DNA of 64,000 bases from Gracilaria domingensis (taxonomy: Eukaryota; Rhodophyta; Florideophyceae; Gracilariales; Gracilariaceae), in contig VCMS01000115.1 of NCBI GenBank assembly GCA_022539475.1, positions 91,436 through 155,435 of the forward strand, written 5' to 3'. Positions 7,288-64,000 of the stretch are shown piece after piece. The translations under genes and the position numbers were made by a program. Numbering within the stretch: position 1 is the first letter of the stretch; the number at the start of each line of letters is the position of its first letter. The notes beneath the pieces are model-generated. The model ran no database searches and was not told the origin of the DNA. It worked only from the letters and a program-made list of their open reading frames with translations.

Positions 7288-7651
7288 GGGAAGAAGAAAT
7301 GAACGAGAAACGACGACAAAGACTGCAAGGGAAGGTCGTCCGAAGGGAGAAGGAGGTCGAGCGACAGTCAAGATCGACGTGTTGCTCAGAACGGATAATA
7401 TATTTTGAGTTTAAATCACGTGCTTTCGTTCAAAAAGGAACGTAGGTACACGTCGACCTCAACACAAGGGTGTACTTCTCGTATTATCTACCACTGGTTA
7501 TAAACCTCTGGTTTCCCAACGTTGTACGCTGTACACTTGTCCAATCTCGCACAGAAAAATAAATCTCTTCCCTCCGCCGCCGCCCCCGCCCGTCCGACGT
7601 CCGATCTTTTGTTACCGTCGTGATCCGTGCCATCCTCGCGTTCTACTCCGC

Positions 7652-20400: not shown

Positions 20401-20842
20401 GCGACTCGCACAGGATACACAGCGCGCGCGTCAGCGATACTGGATAGCTGGAGTGTTTCAAGCGCAGGAGGGTGCACCAGAATTTTCGAACAGCTGTGAG
20501 GTTGAAAAAGAAGTATTCTATGGCTGCATTGATGAAATTTGGAGGGCCAAAGTGTCTTTTCGCCGACCCGGGGAGCAGATTATCTACACAAGAATGATGA
20601 ACATGGTGCGGGTGGATTGGGTTTATGGGATGAAAACAGATCGAATAACTAGAGTGCCCTCCGTAGATCTATCATCGGGACCGAGACGTGGCAGTCTTCG
20701 TGATACGAAGCGCACTGTCGAAGACATCAACTCGATTTCTCACTCAATTGCGTTCTTGGATCATGGTGATAGAAGGCATTTCTTGGATCCGCGGATGCCA
20801 GAATTTGGTAGTTCGGTACGGCTCGGTGGTGTCATTGGGTAG
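17441..20842 (+). CDS. TNP2-like (CACTA/KDZ-related) DDE transposase, 1133 residues
   Basis: A single uninterrupted frame from an ATG. Residues 1 to ~270 are low-complexity (Ser/Asn/Gln/His-rich). The catalytic core follows: LTFSSDGFEVFKGRKTT then WPMIFVVLNFD (first Asp), ITADWPAASKLIGMKGHNAQ with HPCRRC (second Asp and Cys pair), then GTPYDPMHQWLLGWVKH (D-x-M-H, the third conserved acid) and WGRPPESFDYISGFKAEDYKN, typical of TNP2 transposases. All key acids are present, so the protein may be active, unlike the Plavaka-like copy at 4921-7287. Its C-terminal ~250 residues are variable. I could not define TIRs: CACTA-like ends were looked for and none paired convincingly. The protein would act in the nucleus, cutting and re-inserting its element. 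Confidence 0.85.
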   Translation: MRRSLNTDEVQQPGLSKKHRSSHRPSSSSQNTLSSKSMYENSWENDMRTDHAPNQTTGARHRKTFDDHCISSEHSQSEHADSDLISSAPLRCFAQHAPLPQGSSSSFRLPRASAQFQQLRLTHNSRVQLRRARLNDQQQTQDPNDEIGSNRRNNIVHNSEHVSPDNLLAPKGSSLPLQVAVDHESSCPQASYTDFNPYPNPNDEFTEFVSRDECHAAATSPASNEAESVHTSKTRSNYSSSALRNTDEYSSTPEHVLEHDFYNDGKKRELCRLMDVLNIVEYSGMSKNQSRALLQTNILQSRYSYDALIRHALSKPTVSKHFGAMCAEEHVAVYTTHETEQGCCPSEICDRNISKNRKFWYRKPSEMLKSLCAQKDSFPALIDGCAEAKASMQSGGVEEGAYIKDYYSGTYFRERFGKRVLHWKPEEELYIFLTFSSDGFEVFKGRKTTKSSWPMIFVVLNFDCSLRFQASNTLITAFAPGSHDPTLFDSFLQPVVADLRELENGISVHCADGKRRILYAFVLFITADWPAASKLIGMKGHNAQHPCRRCKKEAKRVGNYLRLLPQLGTNDRKQAMTGELLGERSAWITSECPRQRTHQEVADVWRRLKSRISLLSGVELERLKKSTGVKRCPEVSKLSIDVVKGTPYDPMHQWLLGWVKHVTSLCIGSHEQCIGRNSPFVLRRSTIHHINQSLTRGYQGFPAEWGRPPESFDYISGFKAEDYKNIALYYGPVLFRALGIDVRISKLWYATCRITHILFDTSPSVSHIKELRSLLQIAHSLFVDIFYVNEEYAFCITPTTHAVLHFPEILQECGPLRNVSQFIVERVAGRLGDMMTSTNRPEANLFHKTHTLFALRLFNGGFDKKINKPEQHSNIERVDVGRHWNTEGCNDKALELQDSNQKEFSAESNELSSDSGGVAEAAVRSMTGRSYLVQGSGRLRQALDYAHGVLSVTSYEIRIASLRLFPKALISDGDVEVHLEARSEYRRRLAQDTQRARQRYWIAGVFQAQEGAPEFSNSCEVEKEVFYGCIDEIWRAKVSFRRPGEQIIYTRMMNMVRVDWVYGMKTDRITRVPSVDLSSGPRRGSLRDTKRTVEDINSISHSIAFLDHGDRRHFLDPRMPEFGSSVRLGGVIG

Positions 20843-46087: not shown

Positions 46088-47450
46088 TGGCCAAGTCCAA
46101 TCCTTTCCATGATTGCCTGGGCACCTAACGGACCGAGGGGCTTGGTAAGAATGTCTGCGTCGTTCAACTCACTCGACACATACTTCACATCTATCACACA
46201 ATCCTTTACCAAGTCCCTAATGAAATGCAGCTTCACGTCAATGTGCTTAGCCCTACCCGACGGGCACCGTTCACCTGCACTCTAATCGATCGCAACTTGG
46301 TTGTCCGAGTGGAGAGAAACTGCACCATTGATGCCCATATCAAGTTCGGACAGCACGCGTTTCATCCACACAATCTCCTGCGCTGCCATGGTCAGAGCAT
46401 AGTATTCAGCCTCTGCAGTAGACAAAGCAACTGAAGCTTGCTTCTTCGCACCGAAGAACACCACGGCAGAACCGAACTTGATCATATACCCGGACATGGA
46501 CTTGCGATCCGACTTGTCACCAGCAAAGTCTGAATCAACATACGCCTCCATGTCCAAGGAGCCGGCGCGGTAGTTCAATCCATGATGCCGAGTACCCTGT
46601 AGGTAGCGCAGCACTCGTTTCGCAGCTCTATGACAGTATGGTACGATTGATGCGCTCGGCTATGGCGTTGTGTTCTGGAGTGTACGGAGGTGAGAAAGAA
46701 GTATCCTCGAATTCATTGTCTGGATTGTCTTGCAACGCAATGTATTCCTTAGCGTCATCCGAGTGCAGTTTCTTCACCACCACTCCTCCAAGCTGCTTGA
46801 GCTTCTGCGCGACAGCATCATACACATCATTGAGTTCGCTACGATGTTTCATGAATCCAATGAGGACATATCGTGAGTGGTCATCCACGAATGCCGACGC
46901 ATACTTGAACCTTTGTGGGAACGACAGAGTGAGTGGTCCGATGATATCAGTGTGCACTTTGTCACCAACTGACGATTCACGAACAAATGAACCAGGAAAC
47001 GGTAGTTTGTGTGCTTTTCCGAGACGGCATGGCCGACATACCTCCTCCATTTCAGCCAGGCGAGGCACACCATCGGCATGTTTGTGAACAACCTGCAAGT
47101 CTCTCGGGTTCATGTGCGCTAGTCTTCGGTGCCACAGTTGTGCTAGAGCAGTCATCGAGGCCTTCAGTGCGCATTCCAAATCGACTTGGTTGGAGATAAG
47201 AACGCGGTCATGAGTGAAATGCACTATCGGTTCCGGCAAAGTGTACAGTCCGGAACGTTTATCGCGCTTTCCTGACCCAATGTGCAGACCATTGTCATGA
47301 ATCAGACGAACATCTGAAGAACGAAAACGAGATTCAATCTGTTTGTCGGCTAAGCACCCCACTGAAACCAAATTGTACTCCATGGAGGGAACCAACAACG
47401 CATCGGTCAGACGTAGATTCACATTCTCGAAAGGCAAAATCACATCTCCG
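46072..47450 (-). mobile_element. Copia 2 internal region with reverse transcriptase deleted
   Basis: 47443-46628 encodes a GAG-pre-integrase and integrase: zinc-binding WHRRLAHMNP..CRPCRLGK, catalytic KVHTDIIGPL and KLHSDDAKEYI, then EHNAIAERINRTI with the acidic residue. The text then jumps to RNase H (46614-46085: YVDSDFAGDKSDRKSMSGYM, then STAEAEYYALTMAAQEIVWM). The whole reverse transcriptase (~1.5-2 kb) is missing at about 46625. An in-frame TAG (46282-46284) follows NQVAID and the same frame continues to LGQELEEE at the LTR edge. At 47450 the region is cut by an LTR-B in the opposite orientation, so gag and protease are absent. Confidence 0.75.
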
Positions 47451-48191
47451 TTGATGTTGGGTCATGGTCGAGTGCCTGTCAGTCCCTCAAGGGTGCTCCA
47501 AGTACTTGGAATACAAAGTTGCAGGGGAGCATGGGCACTTTTGGGCACCCTCGCGCGAAAAGCGCATATGCGCCTCCCCGCAAACCCAACGTGATACTGC
47601 AATATGATTGGCTACTGCAAATACGTGTATGCAACGTAGTTTGGACAAGTGGTTCTGGCTGTATGGGCCAGGAGTGGCGGGTGGCACAAGTGGTGCGCTG
47701 TGATTGGCTGGAAACTGCTAGTGCTGGCCACTTATGCAGTAGCTGAGAATGTGCGAATACAGGCTATACTGGGCGGTTTTTGCAAGATGTGCGATTCTAG
47801 GCTATTGCGAAGGGTTTTGGAGCGAATGTGCGATTCTGAGCTGCGCGAGGGGGTTTGATGCGTCGGATTGAAAATGTTGATTTTCTGGGGCTACTAATGG
47901 ATCATGGAGTTGGCATTGGATTTGGCGCAGTTTGATTTAGTGGTTTTGAATTCGTATTGTGATTTGCGCGCGCTTTCGTTGTCAAGGTGTACACTTTGAC
48001 AGCGTGTGCTGTTATGTCGCATGCAGCGACGGCGGCGGTGCGCGGTTAGTACTAGAAGGTTGCGATCGTCCCCATTCACTAAACTCGGTCGAAGGTGGAC
48101 TACCCACTTTTTTTGTTTTACCCATCTTGTTCACATTTTTCTCACTTCCCTTTGTCTAACCTGCGCACGCTGCGTTAGGTTATGGGCCCAG
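47451..48191 (+). repeat. LTR-B in plus orientation with primer-binding site
   Basis: Starts at TTGATGTTGGGTCATGG (lacking the first TG) and ends near 48177, followed by GGTTATGGGCCCAG (48178-48191). Its first part is an inverted copy of 45329-46071. A Copia 2 remnant is thus sandwiched between head-to-head LTRs. Confidence 0.75.
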
Positions 48192-48850
48192 AGCGTCGAC
48201 TCTTCGCAGACGTCACGCTCTTCTACTAATTTCTCTTTTGGATGCTACGAAGTTTTCTTATCTGCGACAGGTACGCGTTGCGAGCGAGCGAGCGAGCGAG
48301 CGAGCAGAAGGACCGCGCTGATTTCCCGCAAGCGAATAGCAGGGGCTAACTGGTGAACGCATATCTTTGGCTACTAACCTCTCTGGGACGTCTCGTAGGG
48401 ATTGTAAAGCCCCTCGCTCTGAAGTACGCAGAGCAGGGTAGGTCAAGAAGAACTCGTGCCTCACTTGGAGAGAGTAACCAGGGACCAGAGGTTCGGACCT
48501 CTAGGGTAACCGGATATTTAGATCCTGCCAGTGGACCCGCTGCTTCTTCTTCTTCTTCTTGTTTCCGGGTTGAGCTCTGTCTCACCCGTGAGTATACTCC
48601 AGGCGTCGAGTACCCGAACTCCGCCTGTGATCGCGTACGGGACGCGTCCCGACGAGCGTTGTAGACCTGGTTACACGGTCTCCGCTGGCGCCCTCGCTGT
48701 TGAGTGTTGAGAATACTCCACTCCAGCCTGTGCCCTTTTTGTGTAACATAAGCATTGAGTCCCTCACTCTGCTTGTATTGTTGTTTGTCAAAGATACTTT
48801 TGTGTTTTCCTCTTTGGTTTTCTACTTGGTTTCCTGGATCTGGTTGTATT
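48192..48850 (+). other. LTR-B-family leader region
   Basis: Non-coding leader after the PBS. Contains a GAGC microsatellite (~48278-48304) and a CTT repeat (~48542-48560). It shares the motif GGCATATCTTTGGTCACTAAC-type with the LTR1 leader (near 48358 and 61107). Confidence 0.5.
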
Positions 48851-49628
48851 TGTTGGATGTTGACCCTGTGCTGTCACTGAAAACCAAAAGTGCTGGGGAG
48901 CATGGGCTGTTTTGGAGGGTGCCGTTGGAAAAGCGCATATGCGCCTCTGCGCAAACTCAACGTGAAACGGGCTTGTGATTGGCTACTGCAAATGGTCATA
49001 TGCATTGTGGTTGGTACAAGTGTTGTGGCGCTAGTGGGTTGTTTCCGGGGTACACGTGTGTAGCTAGTACACTGGGCATACTGTACATGATGCACAGAGT
49101 ACACACGTATGTACGTGGACATGTAGGACAGCTTGATGTAACTTTGGCACTATGGTGAAGAGTAGATGCGCTGTCAAGAGGATTACAGTGTGGTGTTGTT
49201 GGTGACGTAGGACTTGGAGTGAGTTTGTGGGGAAGTGTTGTTGGTGAGCTTGTACGTAACTGTTATGGTGTGGTGTAGGGATTACAGTGTGTTGGCACTA
49301 TGTGAATCTGTGCATGGTCATGGTTATGTGTAGGCACGTAACTTGTTGTCCACTGTTGTGCACTGTTGTGCTTTGTTGTTGTAAGCTGCCATGATAGTGT
49401 GGGAGTGTTACCATGTTATGTTAGGAGACGATTGGTAGTTTTGAGTGTCTCTAGCTAGTGGTTTAGGTATTGCTTGGAGTTGAAGGTTTGCGATGGTTGC
49501 GCAAAGTAGTTCTATATAAGCGGTGACTCGAGCACCTCCAAGTAAATTCCGAGCCAGAGCTGGCGAACTTCCCTTCATTCCCCCCATCCTTTCTCTCAAC
49601 CTTCCCTTTCCAGCTATAACCTCCATCA
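48851..49628 (+). repeat. LTR1, copy b (778 bp)
   Basis: Runs TGTTGGATGTTGACCC to CTCCATCA. Contains the palindrome GCGCATATGCGC (48933-48944), an inverted CCAAT box (ATTGG at 48978) and a TATA box TATATAAG (49513-49520), i.e. a standard U3 promoter. Other copies: 51143-51928, 52564-53338 (minus), 58637-59289 (minus), 59442-60182, 62994-63771. Confidence 0.85.
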
Positions 49629-50418
49629 GGTTATGGGCCCAGCCCCGCTGACCTCTGCCGTTATCGTTCCTCTATCGCCGCTCTCCCTCACCGCCGTTCA
49701 CCCGCTTCGCTGTTTTGCATTCTCGTTCTCTTCGTCGTTGGATCGGGTGTGTTGACCGTGTTGTTGGTTGGTGTTGATCTTCTCCTTTCGGTCTTGCGTT
49801 CCTCCCTAAGGGCGTTGTGGTGGTAGTGGTTCGACGTTGATTCTGTATCGTGATTGTGTTTGGGCGCTCGTTGTTGCCCGTGTTGTCGATCGCTATCCGT
49901 TTCGTTTGGTCTCCCTCTGTCGTTATTGTTGGGATCCCCGCGTCGTGTTGCGGGTTCTAATCCGAGAGGTTGAGGACCATTTGTTGTTGAAGTCTGTGCA
50001 CTGCGTGTGTGCTCAGCGTTTGGGGTTGTCATCTGAGGTCCAGCGACAAGCGGTTGATCCGAGCAATCGGGGACGTTAGTCTGGCGGCTTGAACCAAAGC
50101 GGACGTGCTGTCTAGCGGGCTCCCACCGGTCCTTCGGGGCGGATAACGGTGTCGGTCGGAAGACCTGGTAGTACCGCGAGTGCTGAAGTGGACGGGGTGC
50201 CGTGACGCACTGTTGGACTTGGGTGGCTCACCTTTGTTGTTGTTGACCTGACTTTGTGTCGGGTTCTTGATCTGTGGTGAAGGCAAACCGAAACGAGCTT
50301 TTGATCCGTACTGCTGCGGTGGTGCGGGGAGGCGACGTGTCGTAGGCTGACCTCCTTTTCAGGATCAGGCCGCTTGTGAACTTGATTGTTTGCTTGCTGG
50401 AAGCGTACCTCGGTTTTT
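49629..50418 (+). other. Primer-binding site and leader of the LTR1-family element
   Basis: GGTTATGGGCCCAG (49629-49642) directly follows the LTR and is complementary to the anticodon arm of initiator tRNA-Met. The leader that follows is GC-poor in repeats, has no gene, and is shared with 51943-52563, 57900-58622 (inverted) and 60197-61020. Confidence 0.75.
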
Positions 50419-51142
50419 CAGTGAGAGAGGGAGGGTGTCAGAGTAACATCTTCAGACTTAGGCTCTCACTGCCTGTTTTTGATATCTGTTTGAACCGGAA
50501 GCTGTTGCCTTCGTTGCCATACGAAGGATGAGTAAGAATTTCAGAGCATGTGACAAAAGGAGGGCGTTTCCAGAACATCCGAATCGTATAGAACAGAACT
50601 ATGATCTTGGTATACTGGTAGAACGGTACACCGGTGGACTTGGACACACACTAAGTGCACTTGATGTTTGGTTGTCACCGTTGGCCATCGTAAGGTTTAA
50701 GTGCAGTGACCCTGGTTCCCTGACTGCCCGACTTGTTACTTAGCATGTACTTGGCCAGGAGCGCTGGTTGCTTGAAGTCAGTAACAGAGGGAGGGTGTTG
50801 GAAGTCATGCTGTCACTGACATCAAGCAGTTGAGATGTGTGGAGTCTAGAACGGTACCTTGGTATGTCAAACCGAGATTGATGTTGTTCTGTTTGGTATA
50901 CTATGTTGCTGTGTGGTATACTCAGTATGGGTTGAACGTTTACGGCTACATTGGAATGCTGTCGTTCAGCTGGGATGACCACAAGGTACAACGATGACAG
51001 GCTGTACAGTGGTCATGGAGTACAGGTTGCAAGGATATGAATGTGAACACATGGTACAGGTTGCAGCACGGTCAGTGTTGTGAAGTTTACACCACGTTTC
51101 GATGGTGCTACATGCACATGTGTGTGTATGGATGAATGGAAC
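50419..51142 (+). other. Two junction hairpins and stacked LTR 5' ends
   Basis: Hairpin 1: CAGTGAGAG 50419-50427 with CTCTCACTG 50463-50471, loop with AGGGAGGG then TGTCAGAG. Hairpin 2: 50770-50787 with 50810-50827, 16 of 18 paired, loop AGGGAGGG then TGTTGGAAG. Each has a polypurine tract followed by TGT, as at an internal/U3 boundary. About 350 bp after the second hairpin the ordinary LTR1 start appears (51143). Also contains the CCTTCG..CGAAGG hairpin. Confidence 0.6.
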
Positions 51143-52563: not shown

Positions 52564-53308
52564 TGATAGAGGTTGAAGCTGAAAGGGAAGGTTGAAGAAA
52601 GGATAGGGGAATGAAAGGAAGTTCGCCAGCTCTGGCTCGGAATTTACTTGGAGGCGCTCCAGTCACCGCTTATATAGAACTACTTTGCGCAACCATCGCA
52701 CAACTCCAACTCCAAGCAATACCTAAACCACTAGCTAGAGACACTCAATACTACCAATCATCTTCTAACATAACATGGTAACACTCCCACACTATCATGG
52801 CAGCTTACAACAACAAAGCACAACAGTGCACAACCGTGCACAACAACTTACGTGCCTACACTTAACCATGACCATGCACAGATTCACCTAGTGCCAACAC
52901 ACTGTAATCCCTACACGACACCATAACAGTTACGTACAAGCTCACCAACAACATTTCACCACAAACTCACTCCGAGTCCTACGTCACCAACAACACCACA
53001 CTGTAATCCTCTTGACACCACATCAACTCTTCACCATAGTGCCCAAGTTACACCAAGCTGTCCTACAAGTCCACGTACATACGTGTGTACTCTGTGCATC
53101 ATGTACAGTATGCCCAGTGTACTAGCTACACACGTGTACCCTGGAAACAACCCATAAGCGCCACAACACTTGTACCAACCACATTGCATATGACCATTTG
53201 CAGTAGCCAATCACAAGCCCGTTTCACGTTGAGTTTGCGCAGAGGCGCATATGCGCTTTTCCAACGGCACCCTCCAAAACAGCCCATGCTCCCCAGCACT
53301 TTTGGTTC

Positions 53309-53356
53309 TCAGTGACAGCACAGGGTCAACATCCAACACCCCCTCTCTGTCACTGA
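53309..53356 (-). other. Hairpin enclosing the polypurine tract/3' LTR junction of Copia 1
   Basis: On the minus strand TCAGTGACAG (53356-53347) is perfectly complementary to CTGTCACTGA (53318-53309). The 28-nt loop contains AGAGGGGG, the TGTTGG start of the LTR and the next ~14 nt. The stem's first arm lies three bases after the stop codon of the RT ORF; its second arm is inside U3. Confidence 0.75.
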
Positions 53357-53358
53357 CT

Positions 53359-55602
53359 TCAAACTTCTATGTGAATCACACCACCGGCTTCGCGGAACCT
53401 CTCGTGCTTCACTCGCGCAAGCGGCTTATTCAGCATGTCGGCAACCATGGAATCCGTCGGGCAGTAGAACAACACAATCGACTTGGCCTGCAGAGCTTCT
53501 CGAGTGAAGTGGAACCGAATTTCAATATGCTTGGTTCGCCTGTTCACCACTCCATTTCGAGCAAGGTCAATGCTGCCCTGGTTGTCAACATACATGGGAG
53601 TTAGTTCAACCAGCAGCTTTACAGACCCGTCTGCTTCCATGCCAATCACACTGCCAATGCCGTTCCAAAGTCGCCTAAGCCAGATCGCCTCCTTGGTGCC
53701 AGAGCACAAGCTCACGTACTCAGCCTCTGCACTCGACAGAGCAACTACCTCCTGTTGACGAGACGACCACGACACAGCACCACCGCACATCATGAACAAG
53801 TATCCACTAGTGGACTTGCGGTTGGCAACATCGCCAGCCCAGTCAGAGTCCACATAGCCGTGCAGTTGCAAATCGGTGCTGGAGCCATACGTAAACCAGA
53901 ACGTGGTAGTGCCATTGAGGTAGCGAAGAACACGCTTGACCGCCTTCCAGTGAGTGTTTCCCGGCTTCTCAACATACTTGGCCAGCTTAGCCACAGCATA
54001 TGAGATGTCCGGACGAGTTCCCACAGACAGATACATGAGGCAGCCAATCGCCTGACGATACGGTACATGCGTGAGCACTTCCTCCTCAACAGACAAGTCC
54101 ACACCGCACTCCATAAGAGTGTCAACGGGTTTCGACAGCTGCATGCCAAATCGCTCCACGACCTTGTTCGTGTACGCTGACTGAGTCAAGTACAGCTCTC
54201 GCTTGGTTCTGTCTCGATGGATTTCAAATCCAAGAACCATGCGAGCTTCTTTGAGGTCCTTCATGCGGAAACGACTTGACAGCTCTGCCTTCACACGTTC
54301 CACGGTTTTCATGCTCGGACTCGCAATCAGCAAGTCGTCAACATACAGAGCAATGATAACCAAGAAACTTAGTATGATCCCGGTGTAGACACACTCGTCT
54401 GCCTCATTCGGCTTGAGGTGCATTTCACCAACAAGGAAGGCGTATATCTTGGCGTGCCACTGTCTTGGTGCTTGTCTAAGCCCATAGATTGCTTTCTTCA
54501 GTCGGCACACCAAGTCCTCCTTTCCCTGCTGTGTGAATTCCATTGGCTGCTCCATGTACACTGTCTCGTCAAGGTCACCGTTCAGAAAGGCAGTCTTCAC
54601 ATCCATCTGGTGCAAGTGGAAGTCTCGTACGGCAGTCACTGACAGGATCATTCTGATGGATGTGAACTTCACCACAGGTGCATATGTCTCTGAGAAGTCC
54701 ACACCCTCGATCTGCAGGAAGCCTCTTGCAACTACACGAGCCTTGTAACGCACGGTGGGTTCACCAGATGACGATGCCTCATACTTCTGCACATATACCC
54801 ACTTGGACGAAATCACGTTGCTGTCTGCTGGCCTTGGCACTAGATCCCATGTGTCATGCTCCATCAATGACTCGTACTCACTCTTCATCGCCTTCTTCCA
54901 AGCTTCGGAATCAGGACGTGACACTGCGTCACCGTACGACGAAGGAGTATCATCACTGGCTGTAAGGAAAGCACTGGCACCACGCCACCACGAGGATGGC
55001 GTCTTTCTCTGACGTGTGGATCTACGAAGGGGCTGCGTCTCTGTCACTTCCGGCTCATCTTGTGGAACTGGTGTGGTGTGTTCATCCGTACTGGCATTCG
55101 TGGTACTCTCATGAGAAGCTGGTGCAGAAGGATCATCTTCAGAATGATCGGCGGATGTGTCGGAGGTTGACGCTTCAGCAGATACAGACTTGTCGACCAA
55201 GTCGATATCCGCATAGTCCTCGTCTTCAGAGTGCTCGTCACTTTCAGTTGCAGAGCACTCGTCAAACCTCACATCTCGTGACACAATCACCTTCTTCTTC
55301 TGGCTGTCCCACAACTTGTACCCGTAGGAGCCTGAAGTGTACCCAATGAAGATGGCCTCCACTGCACGCTCTTCCAACTTCTTCAACTTGTGATCAACCA
55401 CCTTGTACCAGCAACGGCTACCAAACACACGCAGAGTGCTCAGATCAGGCTTCTGTCCATGCCACAGCTCAAACGGCGTCACCTCACTCGGAAGCGCTTT
55501 GCAGGTCACTCTGTTGCGCACATACACAGAAACATTCAGAGCCTCAGCCCAAAAGCTTTTTGGCACATTTTTGTGATGCAACATTGACCTGACCAAGTCC
55601 AT
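53359..55602 (-). CDS. Copia 1 reverse transcriptase and RNase H
   Basis: Up to 747 residues. The first ~100 complete the integrase (VRNRVTCKALPSEVTPFELW). An acidic linker (SDEHSEDEDYADIDL) follows. The reverse transcriptase starts near residue 240 (WDLVPRPADSNVISSKWVY) and includes the catalytic YVDD (residues 420-423) and the KARVVARG block. RNase H lies in the C-terminal ~150 residues, with DWAGDVANRKSTSGYLF and SSAEAEYVSL. All catalytic motifs are present. The frame has no own start: the first ATG is inside the integrase, so in an active copy this would be translated as part of one polyprotein with the upstream ORF. Confidence 0.9.
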   Translation of the reverse strand: MDLVRSMLHHKNVPKSFWAEALNVSVYVRNRVTCKALPSEVTPFELWHGQKPDLSTLRVFGSRCWYKVVDHKLKKLEERAVEAIFIGYTSGSYGYKLWDSQKKKVIVSRDVRFDECSATESDEHSEDEDYADIDLVDKSVSAEASTSDTSADHSEDDPSAPASHESTTNASTDEHTTPVPQDEPEVTETQPLRRSTRQRKTPSSWWRGASAFLTASDDTPSSYGDAVSRPDSEAWKKAMKSEYESLMEHDTWDLVPRPADSNVISSKWVYVQKYEASSSGEPTVRYKARVVARGFLQIEGVDFSETYAPVVKFTSIRMILSVTAVRDFHLHQMDVKTAFLNGDLDETVYMEQPMEFTQQGKEDLVCRLKKAIYGLRQAPRQWHAKIYAFLVGEMHLKPNEADECVYTGIILSFLVIIALYVDDLLIASPSMKTVERVKAELSSRFRMKDLKEARMVLGFEIHRDRTKRELYLTQSAYTNKVVERFGMQLSKPVDTLMECGVDLSVEEEVLTHVPYRQAIGCLMYLSVGTRPDISYAVAKLAKYVEKPGNTHWKAVKRVLRYLNGTTTFWFTYGSSTDLQLHGYVDSDWAGDVANRKSTSGYLFMMCGGAVSWSSRQQEVVALSSAEAEYVSLCSGTKEAIWLRRLWNGIGSVIGMEADGSVKLLVELTPMYVDNQGSIDLARNGVVNRRTKHIEIRFHFTREALQAKSIVLFYCPTDSMVADMLNKPLARVKHERFREAGGVIHIEV

Positions 55603-57392
55603 GAGTGTGCGGTTGAACCTCTCGGCAAGCCCGTTCTGCTTGGATTATAAGGCACAGTTCGCTGATGCTCAATACCGTACTGCTCAAGCTTTTCGGAGAA
55701 CCGATTGGACAAGTACTCACCACCATTGTCAGTGCGTAATGCACGCAACACACTCTTGCGAGCGGTGATGGTTAACACTTTCCTGCCCATCTGGTTCTCC
55801 ACAAACCTGAGCCACTTGATGAACATCCGGAACACCTCATCCTTCGTCTTGAGCATGTACAAGAAGCAGTAGCGGCTGTGGTCATCGATGAATGTGACAA
55901 AGTAGTGCGAGCCTCCCAAGGACTTCACGTTCACTGGACCCGATATATCAGAGTGTACCAGGTCCAGTACGTGTTCAGCTCGTTCCCCCCCTTGCTTGGG
56001 AGTCGGAGCACGGGTTGCTTTGCCCACTACACAAGAGCCACACACATCCACCTTCTGAGCCACATCCACATTCAGACCTGACACAGCACCGTTTCGAGCC
56101 ATCTGCTTGATGCCTTGCACATTCACATGAGCCATTCGAGCATGCCAAAGAGACAAGTCTGACACAAGCGCACTGTCCGTATCCGTGAACTGATCTGCAG
56201 CAGTGCAAAGGTAGTACAGGTCTTTGACGCGGCGCCCAACGGCAACCACTTTTGACCCCTTGTACACACATACCTTTTCTTCGTCAAACACTACCGTGCA
56301 GCCCAGATCACAAATCTGTGACACAGACAACAAGTGGTACCGTAAGTTGGGCACGTGTACCACCTGCTTTAGCTTGCACTTACGCTTGAACCCTTCAACT
56401 GTCAGATCGAGCTCCACGCTTCCGTGACCAACAGACTGCAACTTGGAATCATTGCCGATACTCACACCCGACGACACCTTTGTCTCGTACGTTTGGAACA
56501 TTGAGTCATCATAAGGCATGTGTGCAGTAGCTCCAGAGTCAACAATCCAGTCACTGTTAGTGGCCTTGTCGGCACCATTCGCAATGAGGCATACAAAGTC
56601 AGAATCGCTGCCGCCCGTACCTTGCTCATCGTTGAGCGCGGTATGTACACTTGGGTGAGCAGCATCGATCTGATCCTTGTTAGCCCCATCACGTTGCTTT
56701 TTGAAACAGTTCTTCTGGATATGACCCTTTATGCCACAATAGTAACACACAACCGACTTCAATGACTTCCTACGAAACTGGCGTCCCAAGAGTGCAGCAT
56801 CAACACCGGACTCCTCCTTGGCACGATCACTCATACGCTGCTCTTCTTGCAATAGACGGCTCTTCACAAACTCCATAGTGAGTTGGCGATCTCCGATCGT
56901 GGTGTCAATTGCAACAATGAGGTGCTCAGAACGATCCGGAAGTCCACATAGAGCAGCCATAGCAATGTCCTCTTCTTCAACGTTGACGTCCATACTCTTG
57001 AGGTCGGAGGCCAAGTGCCGAACACGATTGATGAATTGCAACATCTTCTCGTCCTCGCGCATTTTGACAGAGTAGAAAGCACGTCTGGCGTTGATTCGGT
57101 TAAGAAGAGTCTTACGTTGAAACACATTGCAAATGGCCTTCCATGCGTCAGCAGCAGTCTCGATGTCTCGAATGTGATCCAAGTGCTCGTCGGCAAGCGT
57201 GAGTCCAATGATAGCTCTAGCCCTTTCGTCGCGGATTTGCCACTTTACCAGTTCCTCTTCATCCGTGGGTGCAGAAGTGGTGAGATGGTTCTTGAGGTCT
57301 TTCAGTGCAAGTACATACTGAATCTTCTGCTTCCAAGTATGGAAGTTATCATCACCCAACTTCTCGATCTTGAGCCCACTAAACGAGTCCAT
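55536..57392 (-). CDS. Copia 1 gag, protease and integrase (frame-shifted at its end)
   Basis: From the ATG at 57392 the 618-residue product has a UBN2-type gag (residues 1-200; KLGDDNFHTWKQKIQYVLAL), one CCHC knuckle (216-229, CYYCGIKGHIQKNC) and the aspartic protease motif DSGA (285-288). The integrase zinc finger is at 416-453 (WHARMAH..CGSCVVGK), with the catalytic core's first Asp at 481 (VHSD) and second at 554 (RTDNGGEY). The third acid would come about 35 residues later, but the frame changes at 55634-55642 before it, giving a nonsense tail. One missing base would account for it. The leader just upstream has a long AAC/CAA microsatellite (57466-57535). Confidence 0.9.
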   Translation of the reverse strand: MDSFSGLKIEKLGDDNFHTWKQKIQYVLALKDLKNHLTTSAPTDEEELVKWQIRDERARAIIGLTLADEHLDHIRDIETAADAWKAICNVFQRKTLLNRINARRAFYSVKMREDEKMLQFINRVRHLASDLKSMDVNVEEEDIAMAALCGLPDRSEHLIVAIDTTIGDRQLTMEFVKSRLLQEEQRMSDRAKEESGVDAALLGRQFRRKSLKSVVCYYCGIKGHIQKNCFKKQRDGANKDQIDAAHPSVHTALNDEQGTGGSDSDFVCLIANGADKATNSDWIVDSGATAHMPYDDSMFQTYETKVSSGVSIGNDSKLQSVGHGSVELDLTVEGFKRKCKLKQVVHVPNLRYHLLSVSQICDLGCTVVFDEEKVCVYKGSKVVAVGRRVKDLYYLCTAADQFTDTDSALVSDLSLWHARMAHVNVQGIKQMARNGAVSGLNVDVAQKVDVCGSCVVGKATRAPTPKQGGERAEHVLDLVHSDISGPVNVKSLGGSHYFVTFIDDHSRYCFLYMLKTKDEVFRMFIKWLRFVENQMGRKVLTITARKSVLRALRTDNGGEYLSNRFSEKLEQYGIEHQRTVPYNPSRTGLPRGSTAHSWTWSGQCCITKMCQKAFGLRL

Positions 57393-58636
57393 GATGTAAG
57401 AGAGGAACTGCAGCGAACCAGATAATGCGGTGGCAGACAGGCGGCAATAGCAAACGACAGCGGTAAACAACAACAGCAAACAACAACAACAAACAACAAC
57501 AAACAACAATAACAACAAACAACAACAACAATAAAGATGAATAGTCGGGTGCAAAAGGAACTAAGATTCCTGGTACCCTAGGGAGTCGGACCCCTGACCC
57601 CCGGAGACTCTCCGGGTAAGAAACGACTTCTGCAGTCTACCTCCTCCTGCGTTCTAGGAGAAGGTGCGTCGCTCTCGACGAGACTTCCAGAGGATGGTTA
57701 ATGACCGAAGATATGCCTTCACCAAGTAAAACCCTCTCTGGTCTCTTGCAAGAACTTGCGCGACCCTGAAACTGCAGGTACTATGACAAACCGAGGTACG
57801 CTTCTAGCAAGCAAACAATGAAGTTCACAAGCGGCCTGATCCTAAAAAGGAGGTCAGCCTACGACACGTCGCCTCCCCGCACCACCGAAGCAGTACGGAT
57901 CAAAAGCTCGTTTCAGTTTGCCTTCGCCACAGATCAAGAACCCAACACAAAGTCAGGTCAGCAACAATAAAGGTGGACCACCTCCTGTCCAGTGCAGTAC
58001 GTCACGGCACCCCGTCCACAAATGCCCCCGCGAAGAATACCAGGTCTTTCGACCGACACCGTTATCTGCCCCTAAGGACCGGTGGGAAACTCGCAAGACG
58101 GAACAAATGCTTTGGTTCAAGCCGCCAGACTAACGTCCCCGATTGCTCGGATCAACCGCTCGTCGCACCGAAACTCAAGTGATCACCACACCTGCCGAGC
58201 ACACACGCAGTGCACGGACTTCAACAGAAACGAATGCTGAGCACAACACACAAGTGCACAGACTTCAACAACACAAGGTCCTCAACCTCTCGGATCAGAA
58301 CCCACAAAGACGACGTGGGGATCCCAACAATAATAACAGAGGGAGACCAAACGAAGCGGATAGCGATCGACAACACGGGCAACAACGAGCGCCCAAACAC
58401 AATCACGATAGAAAGTCAACGTCGAACCACCACCAACAAAACGCCCTCAGGGAGGAACGAACGACCGAAAGAAGAAAGTCAACACCGACCAACGATACGG
58501 TCAACACACCCGACGCAACGGAGAAGGGAACGAAAGGGAAAACAGCGAAGCGGATGAACGGCGGTGAGGGAGAGCGGCGAGAATCAGCGGCGAGAGGGAA
58601 CGATAACGGCAGAGGTCAGCGGGGCTGGGCCCATAA
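57393..58636 (-). other. Copia 1 leader and primer-binding site
   Basis: The PBS (58636-58623, GGTTATGGGCCCAG on the minus strand) follows the 5' LTR. The ~1.2-kb leader is non-coding and ends in the AAC/CAA repeat before gag. The plus-strand frame at 58143-58670 lies antisense to it and is not considered a gene. Confidence 0.75.
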
Positions 58637-59289
58637 CCTGATAGAGGTTGAAGCTGAAAGGGAAGGTTGAAGAAAGGATAGGGGAATGAAGGGAAGTTCG
58701 CCAGCTCTGGCTCGGAATTTACTTGGAGGTGCTCGAGTCACCGCTTATATAGAACTACTTTGCGCAACCATCGCACAACTCCAACTCCAAGCAATACCTA
58801 AACCACTAGCTAGAGACACTCAATACTACCAATCATCTTCTAACATAACATGGTAACACTGCCACACTATCATGACAGCTTACAACAACAAAGCACAACA
58901 ACGCACAACAGTGCACAACCGTGCACATCAAGTTACGTGCCTACACATAACCATGACCATGCACAGATTCACATAGTGCCAACACACTGTAATCCGTACA
59001 CGCCACCATAACAGTTACGTACAAGCTCACCAACAACACGTCACCACAAACTCACTCCAAGTCCTACGTCACCAACAATACCACAGTGTAAACCTCTTGA
59101 CAGCGCATCTACTCTTCACCATAGTGCCAAAGTCACATGAAGCTGTCCTACATGTCCACGTACATACGTGTGTACCCTGTGCATCATGTACAGTATGCCC
59201 AGTGTACTAGCTACACACGTGTACCCCGGAAACAACCCATTAGCGCCACAACACTTGTACCAACCACAATGCATATGACCATTTGCAGT

Positions 59290-60196
59290 AGCTGGAAGTC
59301 AGCTGTCACGCATCAAGCAGCTGAGATTTGGAGTCAGAATGGTACCTTGTAGTGAAACCGAGATGATGTTGTTCTGTTTCGATACTAGCTGCTGTTGGTA
59401 TACTCAGTATGGTTGAACGTTTACGGCTACATTGGAATCTGTGTTGGATGTTGACCCTGTGCTGTCACTGAAACCAAAGTGCTGGGAGCATGGCTGTTTG
59501 GAGGTGCCGTTGGAAAAGCGCATATGCGCCTCTGCGCAAATCAACGTGAAACGGGCTTCTGATTGGCTACTGCAAATGGTCATATGCATTGTGGTTGTAC
59601 AAGTGTTGTGGCGCTAATGGGTTGTTCCGGGTACACGTGTGTAGCTAGTACACTGGGCATACTGTACATGATGCACAGGGTACACACGTATGTACGTGGA
59701 CATGTAGGACAGCTTGGTGACTTGGCACTATGGTGAAGAGTTGATGCGTGTCAAGAGGTTACAGTGTGGTGTTGTTGTGACGTAGGACTTGAGTGAGTTT
59801 GTGGTGAGTGTGTGGTGAGCTGTACGTAACTGTTATGGTGCGTGTAGGATTACAGTGTGTGGCACTATGTGAATCTGTGCATGGCATGGTTATGTGTAGG
59901 CACGTAACTTGTTGTGCACTGTTGTGAGTGTTGTGCTTTGTTGTTGTAAGCTGCATGATAGTTGGAGTGTTACCATGTTATGTTGAGATGATTGGTAGTA
60001 TTGAGTGTCTCTGCTAGTGGTTAGGATTGCTTGGAGTTGGAGTTGTGCGATGGTGCGAAGTAGTTCTATATAAGGGTGACTCGAGCACCTCCAAGTAAAT
60101 TCGAGCCAGAGCTGGCGAACTTCCCTTGCATCCCCCCATCCTTCCTCATGTCAACTTTCTGATCCAGCTATAACCTCTAACAGGTTATGGGCCCAG
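59290..60196 (+). mobile_element. 5' LTR of a non-autonomous copia relative, with PBS
   Basis: LTR sequence begins within an upstream extension (TGGAAGTCAGCTG.., 59290), then LTR1 proper from 59442 to 60182, then PBS 60183-60196. Compared with other copies it has lost single bases at many homopolymers. This is the left end of the element that contains the hairpin array. Confidence 0.7.
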
Positions 60197-61310
60197 CCCC
60201 GCTGACCTCTGCCGTTGTCGTTCGTCTTGAGGTTTCCCTTTCCGCCGCTCTCCCTCACCGCCGCCGTGTTGTTGAACGCCGTTGTTGATGTTTTCGATGT
60301 TTTTGCGTCGTGTTTCTTGTCGTTGACTGTTTGGTGGTGTTGTATTTCCCTTTTGGTTTGCGTTCCTCCCTGAGGGCGTTGTGGTGGTAGTGGTTCGACG
60401 TTGTTCTACTTTCGTGATTCTGTTTGGTTTCTCGTTCATTTTCGTTTTCGTCGATCGCTATCCGCTTTGTTGGTTTCTCGCCTCTGTTTTCGTTGTTGTG
60501 ATCCCCGTGTCGTGTTTGCGGGTTCTGATCCGAGGGGTTGAGTACCGTTGTCGTTGAAGTCTGTGCACTTGTGTGTTGTGCTCAGCATTCGTTTTTTCGT
60601 TGAAGTCCGGGCACTGCCTGTGTGCTCGGCATTTGTGGTGATCACTTGGGTTTCGGTGCGACGAGCGGTTGATCCGAGCAATCGGGGACGTTAGTCTGGC
60701 GGCTTGAACCAATTCGGACGCGCTGTCGAGCGGGCTCCCACCGGTCCTTCGGGGCAGATAACGGTGTCGGTCGGAAGACCTGGTAGTACCGCGAGTGCTG
60801 AAGTTGACGGGGTGCCGTGACGTACTGCATCGAACAGGGGTGGTTCACCTTTGTTGTGTGTGACCTGACTGTGTGTTGGGTTCTTGATCTGTTGGGAAGA
60901 CAAACTGAAACGAGCTTTTGATCCGTACTGCTGCGGTGGTGCGGGGAGGCGACGTGTCGTAGGCTGACCTCCTTTTCAGGATCAGGCCGCTTGTGAACTT
61001 GATTGTTTGCTTGCTGGAAGCGTACCTCGGTTTGTCATAGTACCTGCAGTATCAGGGTCGCGCAAGTTCTTGCAAGAGACCAGAGAGGGTTTAACTTGGT
61101 GAAGGCATATCTTTGGTCACTAACCATCCTCTGGACGTCTCGTAGAGAGCGACGCGCCTTCTCCTGGAACGCAGGAGGAGGTAGACAGAAGAAAGTCGTT
61201 TCCTACCCGGAGGGTCTCCGGGGGTCAGGGGTCCGACTCCCTAGGGTACCAGGAATCTTAGTTCCTTATGCACCCGATCGCTTGCAGTTTGTTGTTGTTA
61301 TGCTCGCTAC
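60197..61310 (+). other. Leader of the non-autonomous element
   Basis: Shares its sequence with the Copia 1 leader (inverted at 57540-58622) up to about 61280 (GGGTACCAGGAATCTTAGTTCC), including a GTT repeat instead of the long AAC/GTT tract. After that it diverges: where Copia 1 has gag, this element has the hairpin array. Confidence 0.65.
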
Positions 61311-62143
61311 AGTTCAGGAGGTGGAGTGTTTCCTGCCTGAGACTGTGTGTGTGAGATTCGTTTATGACACTTCCTGGGTGTTTGTTGTTGAACATGTCTG
61401 AGCTCTTCTTTGTATCAACTTTGGAAAGTTGCGATGTTACTTGTCCGTTGTTATCGTGACTTCCTTACGCAGGCTCAGAAGGTTGTCGTTATGTATGCCC
61501 GGGATGTGTGCTGTGCTCTTCGCTTTACTTCTGTTGTACCGGAAGGTTGCTATTTGGTTGCATGTCCGGTGTGTATGGAAGAGCTGTTTGACTCAGGAGG
61601 TTGAGTGTTTCATGCCTGAGTGTTTGTTTCATTACTTGTGATGTTTGTTTCGCTCTTTGTTTCAGTTTGTTGTCACTGGAAGTTTGCTATGTGTTTGCAT
61701 TTCCGGTGTGAATGAAAGAGCTAATTGACTCAGGAGGTTGAGTGTTTCATGCCTGAGTGTGTAGGACATCATTTTGTATGGACGGGGCCTGGAAGGTTGT
61801 CATTTTCCATGTCCAGGTTGCTTGTGTCGCAATTCTCTTATGTGTTATTCGCGGAAGGTTGCTGTGATTTTGCATGTCCGCTGTTTGAAGAGATTTGTTG
61901 AGCTGGAAGGTTGCTCTCTTTTGCATGTCCAGCTGTTAAGAAAGTGATATTGAACCGGAAGGTTGCTACTTGTTACATGTCCGGTGTTCAGAAAAATCGG
62001 TCTTGAACCAGAAGGTTGCGTGCGTTTGCATGTCTGGTTGAAGTACTGTGATTAATGGTGCTCCAAGAGGTTGTTATGTGTTACATGCTCGGAGCAACAT
62101 TTGTCTTCGGTGTCTAGAATGTGGTCACTTGTGGACGTCTAGA
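61311..62143 (+). ncRNA. Array of twelve hairpins with a conserved core and covarying stems
   Basis: Twelve hairpins were found by eye, arms at: 61311-18/61336-44, 61538-43/61565-70, 61591-97/61615-21, 61674-81/61701-08, 61728-34/61752-58, 61788-93/61812-17, 61851-55/61877-81, 61901-07/61928-34, 61954-59/61980-85, 62006-12/62033-39, 62059-64/62091-96 and 62113-18/62138-43. Stems are 5-8 bp. The inner core is about AGGTTG(C)..loop..(G)CATG. The last seven start at intervals of 50-63 nt (mostly 52-54). No protein is encoded. This occupies the place of gag-pol in the element. It is most likely transcribed as RNA; no function is known. The 'ncRNA' type is an inference. Confidence 0.65.
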
Positions 62144-62197
62144 TCCCTTTTGTGAAGGACTCTGAGGTACATTTTGTTTCTGAGAGAAGTTCAAAGC

Positions 62198-62606
62198 CAG
62201 TGAGAGAGGGAGGGTGTCAGAGTAACATCCTCAGACTTAGGCTCTCACTGTCTGTTGTTGATATCTGTTTGAACCGGAAGCTGTTGCCTTCGTTGCCATA
62301 CGAAGGATGAGTAAGAAGTTCAGAGCATGTGACAAAAGGAGGGTGTTTCCAGAACATCCGAATCGTATAGAACAGAACTATGGTCTTGGTATACTGGTAG
62401 AACGGTACACCCGTGGACTTGGTCACACAATAACTACACTTGATGTGTAGTTGTCACCGTTGGCCATCATAAGGTTTAAGTGCAGTGACGCTGGTTTCCT
62501 GACTGCCCGACTTGTTACTTAGCATGTACTTGGCCAGGAGCGCTGGTTGCTTGAAGTCAGTAACAGAGGGAGGGTGTTGGAAGTCATGCTGTCACTGACA
62601 TCAAGC
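62198..62606 (+). other. Two further hairpins enclosing polypurine tract/TGT junctions
   Basis: CAGTGAGAG 62198-62206 with CTCTCACTG 62242-62250, loop with AGGGAGGG and TGTCAGAG. Then 62549-62566 with 62589-62606 (16 of 18 pairs), loop with AGGGAGGG and TGTTGGAAG. Same as those at 50419-50471 and 50770-50827. Confidence 0.65.
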
Positions 62607-63063
62607 AGCTGAGATGTGTGGAGTCTAGAATGGTACCTTGGTATGTGAAACCGAGATTGATGTTGTTCTGTTTGGTATACTATGCTGCTGTGTGGTATAC
62701 TCAGTATGGGTTGAACGTTTACGGCTACATTGGAATGCTGTGTTGGATGTTGACCCTGTGCTGTCACTGAAAACCAAAAGTGCTGGGGAGCATGGGCTGT
62801 TTTGGAGGGTCAGTAACAGAGGGAGGGTGTTGGAAGTCATGCTGTCACTGACATCAAGCAGCTGAGATGTGTGGAGTCTAGAATGGTACCTTGGTATGTG
62901 AAACCGAGATTGATGTTGTTCTGTTTGGTATACTATGCTGCTGTGTGGTATACTCAGTATGGGTTGAACGTTTACGGCTACATTGGAATGCTGTGTTGGA
63001 TGTTGACCCTGTGCTGTCACTGAAAACCAAAAGTGCTGGGGAGCATGGGCTGTTTTGGAGGGT
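62558..63063. repeat. 253-bp tandem duplication across the LTR start
   Basis: CAGTAACAGAGGGAGGGTGT begins both 62558 and 62811; each copy runs through the LTR1 start to GTTTTGGAGGGT. The copies are nearly identical, so the duplication is recent or reflects an assembly duplication. Confidence 0.9.
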
Positions 63064-63771
63064 GCCGTTGGAAAAGCGCATATGCGCCTCTGCGCAAAGT
63101 GAACGTGAAACGGGCTTCTGATTGGCTACTGCAAATGGTCATATGCATTGTGGTTCGTACAAGTGTTGTGGCGCTAATGGGTTGTGTCCGGGGTACACGT
63201 GTGTAGCTAGTACACTGGGCATACTGTACATGATGCACAGGGTACACACGTATGTACGTGGACATGTAGGACAGCTTGGTGTAACTTGGGCACTATGGTG
63301 AAGAGTTGATGCGGTGTCAAGAGGATTACAGTGTGGTGTTGTTAGTGACGTAGGACTTGAAGTGAGTTTGTGGTGAGTTGCTGTTGGTGAGCGTGTACGT
63401 AACTGTTATGGTGTCGTGTAGGGATTTTAGTGTGTCGGCACTATGTGAATCTGTGCATGGACATGGTTATGTGTAGGCACGTAACTTGTTGTGCACTGTT
63501 GTGGAGTGTTGTGCTTTGTTGTTGTAAGCTGCCATGATAGTGTGGGAGTGTTACCATGTCATGTTAGAAGATGATTGGTAGTATTGAGTGTCTCTAGCTA
63601 GTGGTTTAGGTATTGCTTGGAGTTAGAGTTGTGCGATGGTTGCGCAAAGTAGTTCTATATAAGCGGTGACTCGAGCACCTCCAAGTAAATTCCGAGCTAG
63701 AGCTGGCGAACTTCCTTTCATTCCCCCCTTCCTTTCTCTCAACCTTCCCTTTGCAGCTATAACCTCTAACA
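62994..63771 (+). repeat. LTR1, copy g (3' LTR of the non-autonomous element)
   Basis: TGTTGGATGTTGACCC to CTCTAACA. It ends without the usual primer-binding site, consistent with a 3' LTR. It is followed at once by an LTR segment in reverse orientation. Confidence 0.75.
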
Positions 63772-64000
63772 GTAGCCAATCAGAAGCCCGTTCCACGTTC
63801 AGTTTGCGCAGAGGCGCATATGCGCTTTTCCAACGGCACCCTCCAAAACAGCCCATGCTCCCCAGCACTTTTGGTTTTCAGTGACAGCACAGGGTCAACA
63901 TCCAACAGCCGTGACGTACTGCACTGGACAGGAGGTGGTCCACCTTTATTGTTGCTGACCTGACTTTGTGTTGGGTTCTTGATCTGTGGCGAAGGCAAAC
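63772..64000 (-). repeat. Inverted LTR1 start and leader-like sequence to the window edge
   Basis: 63772-63907 is the first ~136 bp of LTR1 in minus orientation, ending at its TGTTGG (63907). From 63908 the sequence matches the plus-strand leader (CCGTGACGTACTGCACTGGA.., compare 57985-58012 inverted). The order is not that of a normal element, so a rearrangement or misassembly is likely. Confidence 0.6.

Follow-up and report, generated by a model that had tools for sequence, protein, structure and literature searches.

The array element and its setting

The element that carries the array lies at 59293-63771 on the plus strand of the window (the whole stretch of DNA analysed, 64,000 nt), within the 5′ LTR of a gag-pol Copia element, and the same 5-bp target-site duplication, GTAGC, can be read directly on both sides of it. 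Its parts, together with the element that it interrupts, are as follows:

52564-59292, minus strand: related gag-pol Copia, candidate helper family; its 5′ LTR is interrupted by the array element
59288-59292: left target-site duplication GTAGC, read directly
59293-60182, plus strand: 5′ LTR of the array element, from LTR comparison; begins TGGAAG
60183-61299, plus strand: primer-binding site (GGTTATGGGCCCAG...), then the leader, which is homologous to that of the minus-strand gag-pol Copia
62144-62564, plus strand: tail without a long ORF, with two more purine tracts like the polypurine tract (PPT), at ~62202-62214 and ~62334-62343
62565-62574, plus strand: PPT, AGAGGGAGGG; precedes the LTR start TGTTGG at 62575
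62828-63771, plus strand: 3′ LTR, from LTR comparison
63772-63776: right target-site duplication GTAGC, following the 3′ LTR

In this copy the 5′ LTR is without the initial TGT that is present in other copies; its first ~160 nt are of the LTR type of the array family and the remainder is of the type of the gag-pol Copia. The sequence that follows it, beginning at 60183, is one that we take to be a tRNA-primer site. LTR plus leader, over 1.8 kb, are 87% identical between the array element and the gag-pol Copia (59566-61299 against 59292-57524), and the similarity of the leader stops at 61299, from where the hairpin array stands in the place of gag-pol and is followed by the tail and the PPT. 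The longest ORF of the internal region has 132 aa (61003-61401) and is located mostly upstream of the array. No gag or pol match was found between the LTRs, which bears out the original prediction of a non-autonomous, Copia-related LTR element devoid of gag-pol. Just upstream of the 3′ LTR stands an exact tandem copy (62556-62810) of 62809-63063, a segment made of the PPT and the first part of the LTR. The 5′ and 3′ LTRs of this copy differ by 25 mismatches and 46 gap openings, though other copies have identical pairs; perhaps this divergence reflects an assembly error.

The gag-pol Copia has on the minus strand an ORF (55536-57554) with gag, zinc knuckle, pre-integrase and integrase domains, the zinc knuckle in the Gag ORF being recognized at E 0.0002, and another (53359-55602) with reverse transcriptase. 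Its 3′ junction pattern is found at 126 places in the genome. It gave no match to the covariance model of the hairpins (see below) at E values up to 1, so that a mere duplication of part of that helper does not account for the array; the RNAs of the two elements, in the window, would have the leader in common and not the hairpin motif. It is plausible, as had been suggested, that the array element borrows the proteins of this family (Copia 1).

Other features of the window deserve mention. The PPT of the array element is inside a hairpin that spans the boundary between the internal region and the LTR (z -4.1), such that, in 62550-62610, the PPT and the start of the 3′ LTR are placed in its loop; a matching inverted repeat, TCAGTGACAG/CTGTCACTGA, is seen by eye in the gag-pol Copia (minus strand, ~53310-53360). 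Purine tracts of the tail, at 62183-62260 and 62310-62380, resemble the PPT, and AGGG-TGT...ACA-T is common to them and the array motif; the folds of the two tracts are not unusual (z -1.5 and -1.1). Descent of the array from a PPT-like purine-tract hairpin is possible. A third, more distant LTR-like stretch (47440-48850) has the same PBS-like sequence at ~48178 and, over a short piece (48341-48398), similarity to the leader of the array element. Domains of Plavaka and Transposase_21 were recognized in ORFs at 4921-7371 and 17441-20842, in what is probably the genome of a red alga.

Organization of the hairpin array

The hairpins, all on the plus strand, are laid out as follows:

61312-61342: hairpin h1, inner stem GGA/TCC
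61419-61450: degenerate hairpin h3, covariance model 12.8 bits, E 0.46
61473-61504: degenerate hairpin h4, from the alignment among copies
61515-61584: 7-bp enclosing helix GCTCTTC/GAAGAGC around h5 (61515-61521 with 61578-61584)
61537-61571: hairpin h5, A-type, unit 1
61591-61621: hairpin h6, B-type, inner stem TGA/TCA
61652-61721: 7-bp enclosing helix GCTCTTT/AAAGAGC around h7 (61652-61658 with 61715-61721)
61674-61708: hairpin h7, A-type, last unit; loop variant AGTT/TT
61728-61758: hairpin h8, B-type, identical to h6
61787-61818: hairpin h9, from the covariance model
61849-61883: hairpin h10, from the covariance model
61901-61934: hairpin h11, from the covariance model
61953-61986: hairpin h12, from the covariance model
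62006-62039: hairpin h13, from the covariance model
62061-62094: hairpin h14, inner stem TGT/ACA

The members have a common layout, in which an outer stem is followed by an internal loop of 4 nt opposite 2 nt, a 3-bp inner stem and an apical loop. They are 31-35 nt long, and the 11 clear ones align over 35 columns, mismatches allowed. The internal loop is AGGT opposite TG in 10 of the 11, the exception being h7 (AGTT/TT). The inner stem varies (TGC/GCA, TGA/TCA, GGA/TCC, TGT/ACA) and is reduced to just two pairs in h9 and h12. The enclosing helices of h5 and h7 differ by one paired change, C-G around h5 and T-A around h7. Starts of the last five hairpins follow one another at 52-55 nt, and the earlier part is built from a 137-nt tandem unit of two hairpins.

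The original prediction placed twelve hairpins at 61311-62143. The array and its location are real; the count is 11 clear members plus two degenerate ones, and the array proper covers 61312-62094. An item listed among the twelve, TCTAGA/TCTAGA at ~62113-62143, is without the core, is unmatched by the model and has to be removed from the set. A conserved core, described as AGGTTG..CATG, is present inasmuch as the AGGT/TG loop is nearly fixed, but it is a two-sided loop and the inner stem varies; likewise, the period of about 53 nt given for the later hairpins holds for the last five, and gives way to the 137-nt unit earlier. A CRISPR array, dismissed from the start, is indeed not what is found: there is no constant repeat, the stems vary, the near-constant part consists of the internal loop and a few positions, and the genome is eukaryotic. 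A coding array was also rejected, as the ORFs across the region are short and none of the spacings (52, 53, 55 and 137) is divisible by three.

The array exceeds chance expectation

Strict hairpins were defined by an outer stem of at least five Watson-Crick pairs, the 4-nt/2-nt internal loop and a 3-bp inner stem. The interval 61311-62143 contains seven such hairpins, whereas 1000 dinucleotide shuffles average 0.05, with two as the highest count, and even when the best of 64 loop geometries was taken, none of 100 shuffles had more than two hairpins. The possibility that hairpins would arise as often in shuffled sequence can thus be set aside, the observed number being far beyond chance. The rest of the window, both strands included, has 16 hairpins of the same geometry, none with the AGGT/TG loop. 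A covariance model made from the 11 hairpins recovers them all at E values no higher than 1.4e-07, a match by construction; its other matches in the window at E up to 1 are two elsewhere (0.095 and 0.38) and one at 61419-61450 (0.46). In the genome, a pattern search returned 260 matches, versus 0 for the reversed pattern. Strict AGGT/TG hairpins number 316 inside arrays (from 51 sources, that is 50 loci plus the window end, overlapping loci being counted twice) and 0 in 272,606 nt-strand outside arrays, where parts of Copia elements (LTR, leader, gag and pol) are among the sequence counted. The core pattern was also found in at least 120 stretches of viral contigs; among the 80 listed, each has one match and there is no array.

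No Rfam family matched anywhere in the window at the gathering score, and at E up to 5 the region 60100-62700 gave one weak match to a miRNA family (E 4.5), outside the array. A retrozyme was accordingly rejected. More generally, a source of small RNAs or a self-cleaving, retrozyme-like ribozyme element, an idea that hairpins in a gene-less LTR element would suit, has this Rfam result against it, and the hairpins, at 31-35 nt, are short for Dicer; we find such a reading scarcely credible.

Pairing is kept among the hairpins of one array

In the 10 distinct rows formed by the hairpins of the window, 94 of 100 cells pair (94.0%), and both sides have changed in nine of the 10 pairs. The claim that the stems differ and yet stay complementary is therefore upheld. 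Covariation scores 0.722, compared with 0.269 in column shuffles, of which 0 in 500 score as high; because the members are related by duplication this last figure is not a probability, and the argument rests instead on the slid control and on the contrast between loop and stem. In the slid structures, with the partner moved by 1-3 columns, the score falls to 0.033-0.141. Over the 11 hairpins, identity is 94% in the internal loop, 49% in the outer stem and 50% in the apical loop. Given that 94% of the cells pair, what is conserved is the sequence of the loop and, in the stems, the ability to pair.

RNAalifold, with no structure supplied, returns the identical fold. Folded singly, four of the 10 distinct hairpins (h5, h6, h10 and h11) have exactly the common fold as their minimum; in the other six the outer helix forms and the inside differs. 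The fold common to the hairpins is well supported. Folding energy does not choose the strand, since the departure from shuffles, 20 per strand, is larger for the minus strand (z -6.1) than for the plus (z -2.5). We take the plus strand as the one that probably acts, because the LTR, the primer-binding site and the PPT set the direction of transcription.

The same figures bear on two other readings. An array for DNA binding, or of cruciforms, with an insulator- or enhancer-like role, could draw on the spacing of the last five hairpins, as 52-55 nt is near five helical turns. The arms should then be conserved, however; instead they vary, and it is the pairing and the asymmetric loop that are kept, making this reading highly improbable. 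A dimerization or kissing-loop array, by which the RNA of the element would be co-packaged with itself or with the helper RNA, has a precedent in Ty1, in which, in passages of the relevant study, hairpin-loop kissing is modelled to start dimerization and packaging (PMC5454406). Here the apical loops vary in length and sequence, with the 50% identity over aligned columns already given, and no common palindrome was seen by eye; we consider a kissing-loop array improbable.

Copies of the array element in the genome

The genome searched comprises 77.9 Mb in 680 contigs. Contig 680 encodes a RuBisCO large subunit with 98% identity to those of several Gracilaria species and up to 96% to Gelidium; if this contig comes from the same organism, the host is probably a Gracilaria-like red alga. 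A search with the whole array gave at least 79 matches among the 40 of 61 candidates that were scored. The pattern of the last hairpin and that of the tail, allowing up to 3 mismatches, are each found at 51 places; more diverged copies are missed, since the patterns are limited to 3 mismatches. The last hairpin is present at 50 of the 51 tail places and lies within 300 nt at 49 of them; at the 50th, on contig C167, it is some 9.6 kb off. An array is missing from the remaining tail place, which starts at 50419 of the window and whose deletion junction is unique in the genome; the surrounding stretch, 48851-50966, is an internally deleted relative without the array, in which leader and tail are joined at ~50417-50420. 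Conversely, one array place, on C161, is without the tail, and in locus L064, on C65, the array is without its last hairpin. As far as two patterns can tell, the array thus appears near-universal in the family. Copies differ in the number of A/B pairs per array, from two to four.

The element is about 4.5 kb long (59293-63771 in the window; about 4.5 kb in L037). The LTRs have TG..CA ends. Most copies have their own LTR type of about 988 nt, and in the window copy and L025-L028 the first 160 nt of the LTR are of the family type and the remainder matches the gag-pol Copia. A search with the core of the family's own LTR gave 115 candidates, of which 40 were scored, about as expected for ~51 elements with two LTRs each. 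The sequence GGTTATGGGCC stands after the 5′ LTR in all 14 copies read at this site, and GAGGGAGGG before the 3′ LTR in all 13 read there. Between leader and tail, 20 copies and that of the window gave no match to the gag or pol of the window's Copia (blastn, E 1e-10); a rearranged copy, L033, has a piece of gag between its tail and the next LTR.

There are signs that the array family has been mobile recently. Of 12 copies in which both LTRs were compared, seven have pairs that are 99.5-100% identical (L022, L026, L029, L036, L037, L038 and L039), and in L030, cut by a contig end, the pair is 100% identical over 579 nt. The figure is 95% in L025 and 91% in the window copy, and in L023 and L034 the pairs align in pieces only. 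In L029, L030 and L039 the array elements stand head to tail with LTRs in common, as if by LTR recombination, and since L029 and L039 are head to tail with another element, their LTR pairs may stem from more than one insertion. The 5-bp target duplication is present in five of the 12 (L022, L023, L036, L037 and the window copy), absent in L025, L026 and L034, and unreadable in L029, L030 and L039 (tandem or cut) and in L038 (masked).

Compensation and constraint among copies

Changes in the arms that are compensated among copies occur at a few sites. For A2, a hairpin that is absent from the window copy, CCGG/CCGG, CCGG/CTGG and CCAG/CTGG all exist, so that a single pair is seen as G-C, as G-U and as A-U. 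An extra base (TCCTGGT) is present in other A2 copies, and L062 has a mismatch. In h4, a C-G pair is T-A in 3 of 46 rows. In h3, a G-C pair is replaced by A-T in one row of 44 and is broken in six, five of them C-C and one G-G. Among one-sided changes shared by at least three copies, 11 give G-U, 10 give A-C and 15 give other mismatches, some of the rows (A2) being mis-registered. When rows common to at least two loci are considered (62 of 177 distinct rows), 463 cells are Watson-Crick, 59 G-U, 27 A-C and 71 other, mis-registered rows included. The refuting condition set at the outset, arms of other copies that change with loss of pairing, thus gets a mixed answer, with compensatory changes at A2 and h4 on one side and, on the other, 25 one-sided variants that are unpaired versus 11 that are G-U.

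Constraint on the hairpins among young copies has the expected direction and is not significant: over the h9-h14 region of 46 copies, the sites at which at least four copies carry a variant number 11 among 203 in hairpins and 18 among 200 elsewhere (Fisher p 0.18). The G-U and A-C counts do not single out one strand. What may be a structure kept by selection on RNA, rather than at the DNA level, shows itself in the covariation between hairpins of one array and, among copies, at A2.

These data also bear on an origin at the DNA level, in which tandem duplication, combined with correction of one palindrome arm by the other through template switching during replication or reverse transcription, would produce paired arms with no selection on RNA. 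The 137-nt and 52-55-nt tandem units, and the varying number of units among copies, are as such a process would have them, and the constraint that falls short of significance within the family, the nearly equal G-U and A-C events (11 and 10) and the folding of the minus strand fit as well. Correction between arms should, however, make the loop complementary, and instead the asymmetric AGGT/TG is kept in 10 of 11 hairpins as the stems diverge. Moreover, a G-U intermediate survives at A2, and G-U cells outnumber A-C cells, 59 to 27, in rows common to at least two loci (mis-registered rows included). On balance we regard an origin at the DNA level as unlikely.

A possible role in packaging

A near-fixed loop that bears guanosines, helices that are free to change and the presence of many such units in a row are to be expected where a protein docks on many repeated sites. 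Tentatively, we propose that the array is a multivalent RNA docking site, most likely for the CCHC zinc knuckle of a helper Gag, by which an RNA without genes is packaged. The array, in the place of gag-pol, would be transcribed from the LTR, and 11-15 small hairpins would form one after another in the transcript. Most of these would display a purine-bearing 4×2 internal loop, AGGU opposite UG, between short helices, the sequence of which could change freely while pairing holds. One RNA-binding protein could then dock at many loops; if this protein is the zinc knuckle of a Gag that the related gag-pol Copia provides in trans, the gene-less RNA may thereby be gathered efficiently into particles. 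Transcription, action as RNA, binding of a protein, Gag as the ligand and packaging are steps that we infer. In the papers cited, retroviral zinc knuckles bind exposed guanosines (PMC7599994), a purine loop is critical for the packaging of MMTV (PMC8096270) and multiple packaging signals are said to promote the assembly of RNA viruses (PMC6281560).

The gag-pol Copia of the window is without the hairpin, so that its own RNA must enter particles by other means. The two elements have a 1.1-kb leader in common that could be enough for packaging, which counts against the array as a packaging signal. A more specific form of the docking proposal, to which we give a little less credence, is that the array is a clustered super packaging signal, with one motif shown 11-15 times, that replaces gag-pol, is absent from the helper and serves to out-compete it for Gag.

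The main rival is that the leader does the packaging and the array docks a host protein, such as a factor for nuclear export, stability, localization or translation. This draws on the same structural evidence (covariation, fixed loop, RNAalifold result), and the absence of the hairpin from the window's gag-pol Copia is in its favour, as is the longest internal ORF, of 132 aa and mostly upstream of the array. No known motif was recognized, however, the Rfam search of the window having returned nothing at the gathering score, and docking of a host protein seems to us somewhat unlikely. The zinc knuckle of Gag remains our preferred ligand. In a wider context, one short RNA and a single protein domain would suffice for a direct test of how gene-less elements win the particles of a helper.

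Comparison with known systems

By its LTRs, primer-binding site, PPT, lack of gag-pol and length of ~4.5 kb, the element is, as judged from its sequence, a non-autonomous Copia element of the LARD type; passages of one study set the limit at over 4 kb for LARDs and under 4 kb for TRIMs (PMC4558846). LARDs (large retrotransposon derivatives, for example Sukkula of grasses) are likewise longer than 4 kb, have no coding capacity and are thought to be mobilized in trans. A conserved RNA structure has already been claimed for LARDs and TRIMs, in passages of PMC7215508. Unlike LARDs as described in such passages, the present family repeats a single hairpin motif in tandem, its internal loop being nearly fixed. 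In the open-licence literature, searched by title and the start of the abstract, there was no tandem hairpin array in a non-autonomous LTR element. The ta-TRIM of Echinococcus also has a non-coding interior, thought to hold a packaging signal, PSI, that is kept as structure; it differs in being shorter than 4 kb, and in passages of its description PSI is called difficult to identify and no hairpin is mentioned (PMC4558846). For LARDs and TRIMs the packaging region is said to be hard to identify, and here a candidate structure can be named down to its loop, a motif that is repeated about 12 times, at some 51 places, in a genome that also has a gag-pol relative with a zinc knuckle.

The TIPIRT domain of Ty1 is likewise an RNA structure of an LTR retrotransposon, needed for packaging and for the helper-driven mobility of mini-elements; in passages of its description it is composed of a pseudoknot and kissing loops at the 5′ end, and is not a hairpin array (PMC5454406). 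The internal loops of HIV-1 SL1 and the purine loop of MMTV resemble the present motif, in passages of the respective papers, in that short helices flank a loop presumably offered to nucleocapsid or Gag (PMC7599994; PMC8096270). Retroviral packaging hairpins are situated in the 5′ region of a coding genome, whereas here about a dozen near-identical copies, putative binding sites, come after the leader in an element without genes. In the dispersed packaging signals of MS2 and STNV, one motif is shared and the stems are free. As in the array element, several stem-loops are present, which in passages on these viruses promote assembly (PMC6281560). In MS2 and STNV, however, the signals are dispersed in coding genomes, whereas in the array element they would be clustered in tandem.
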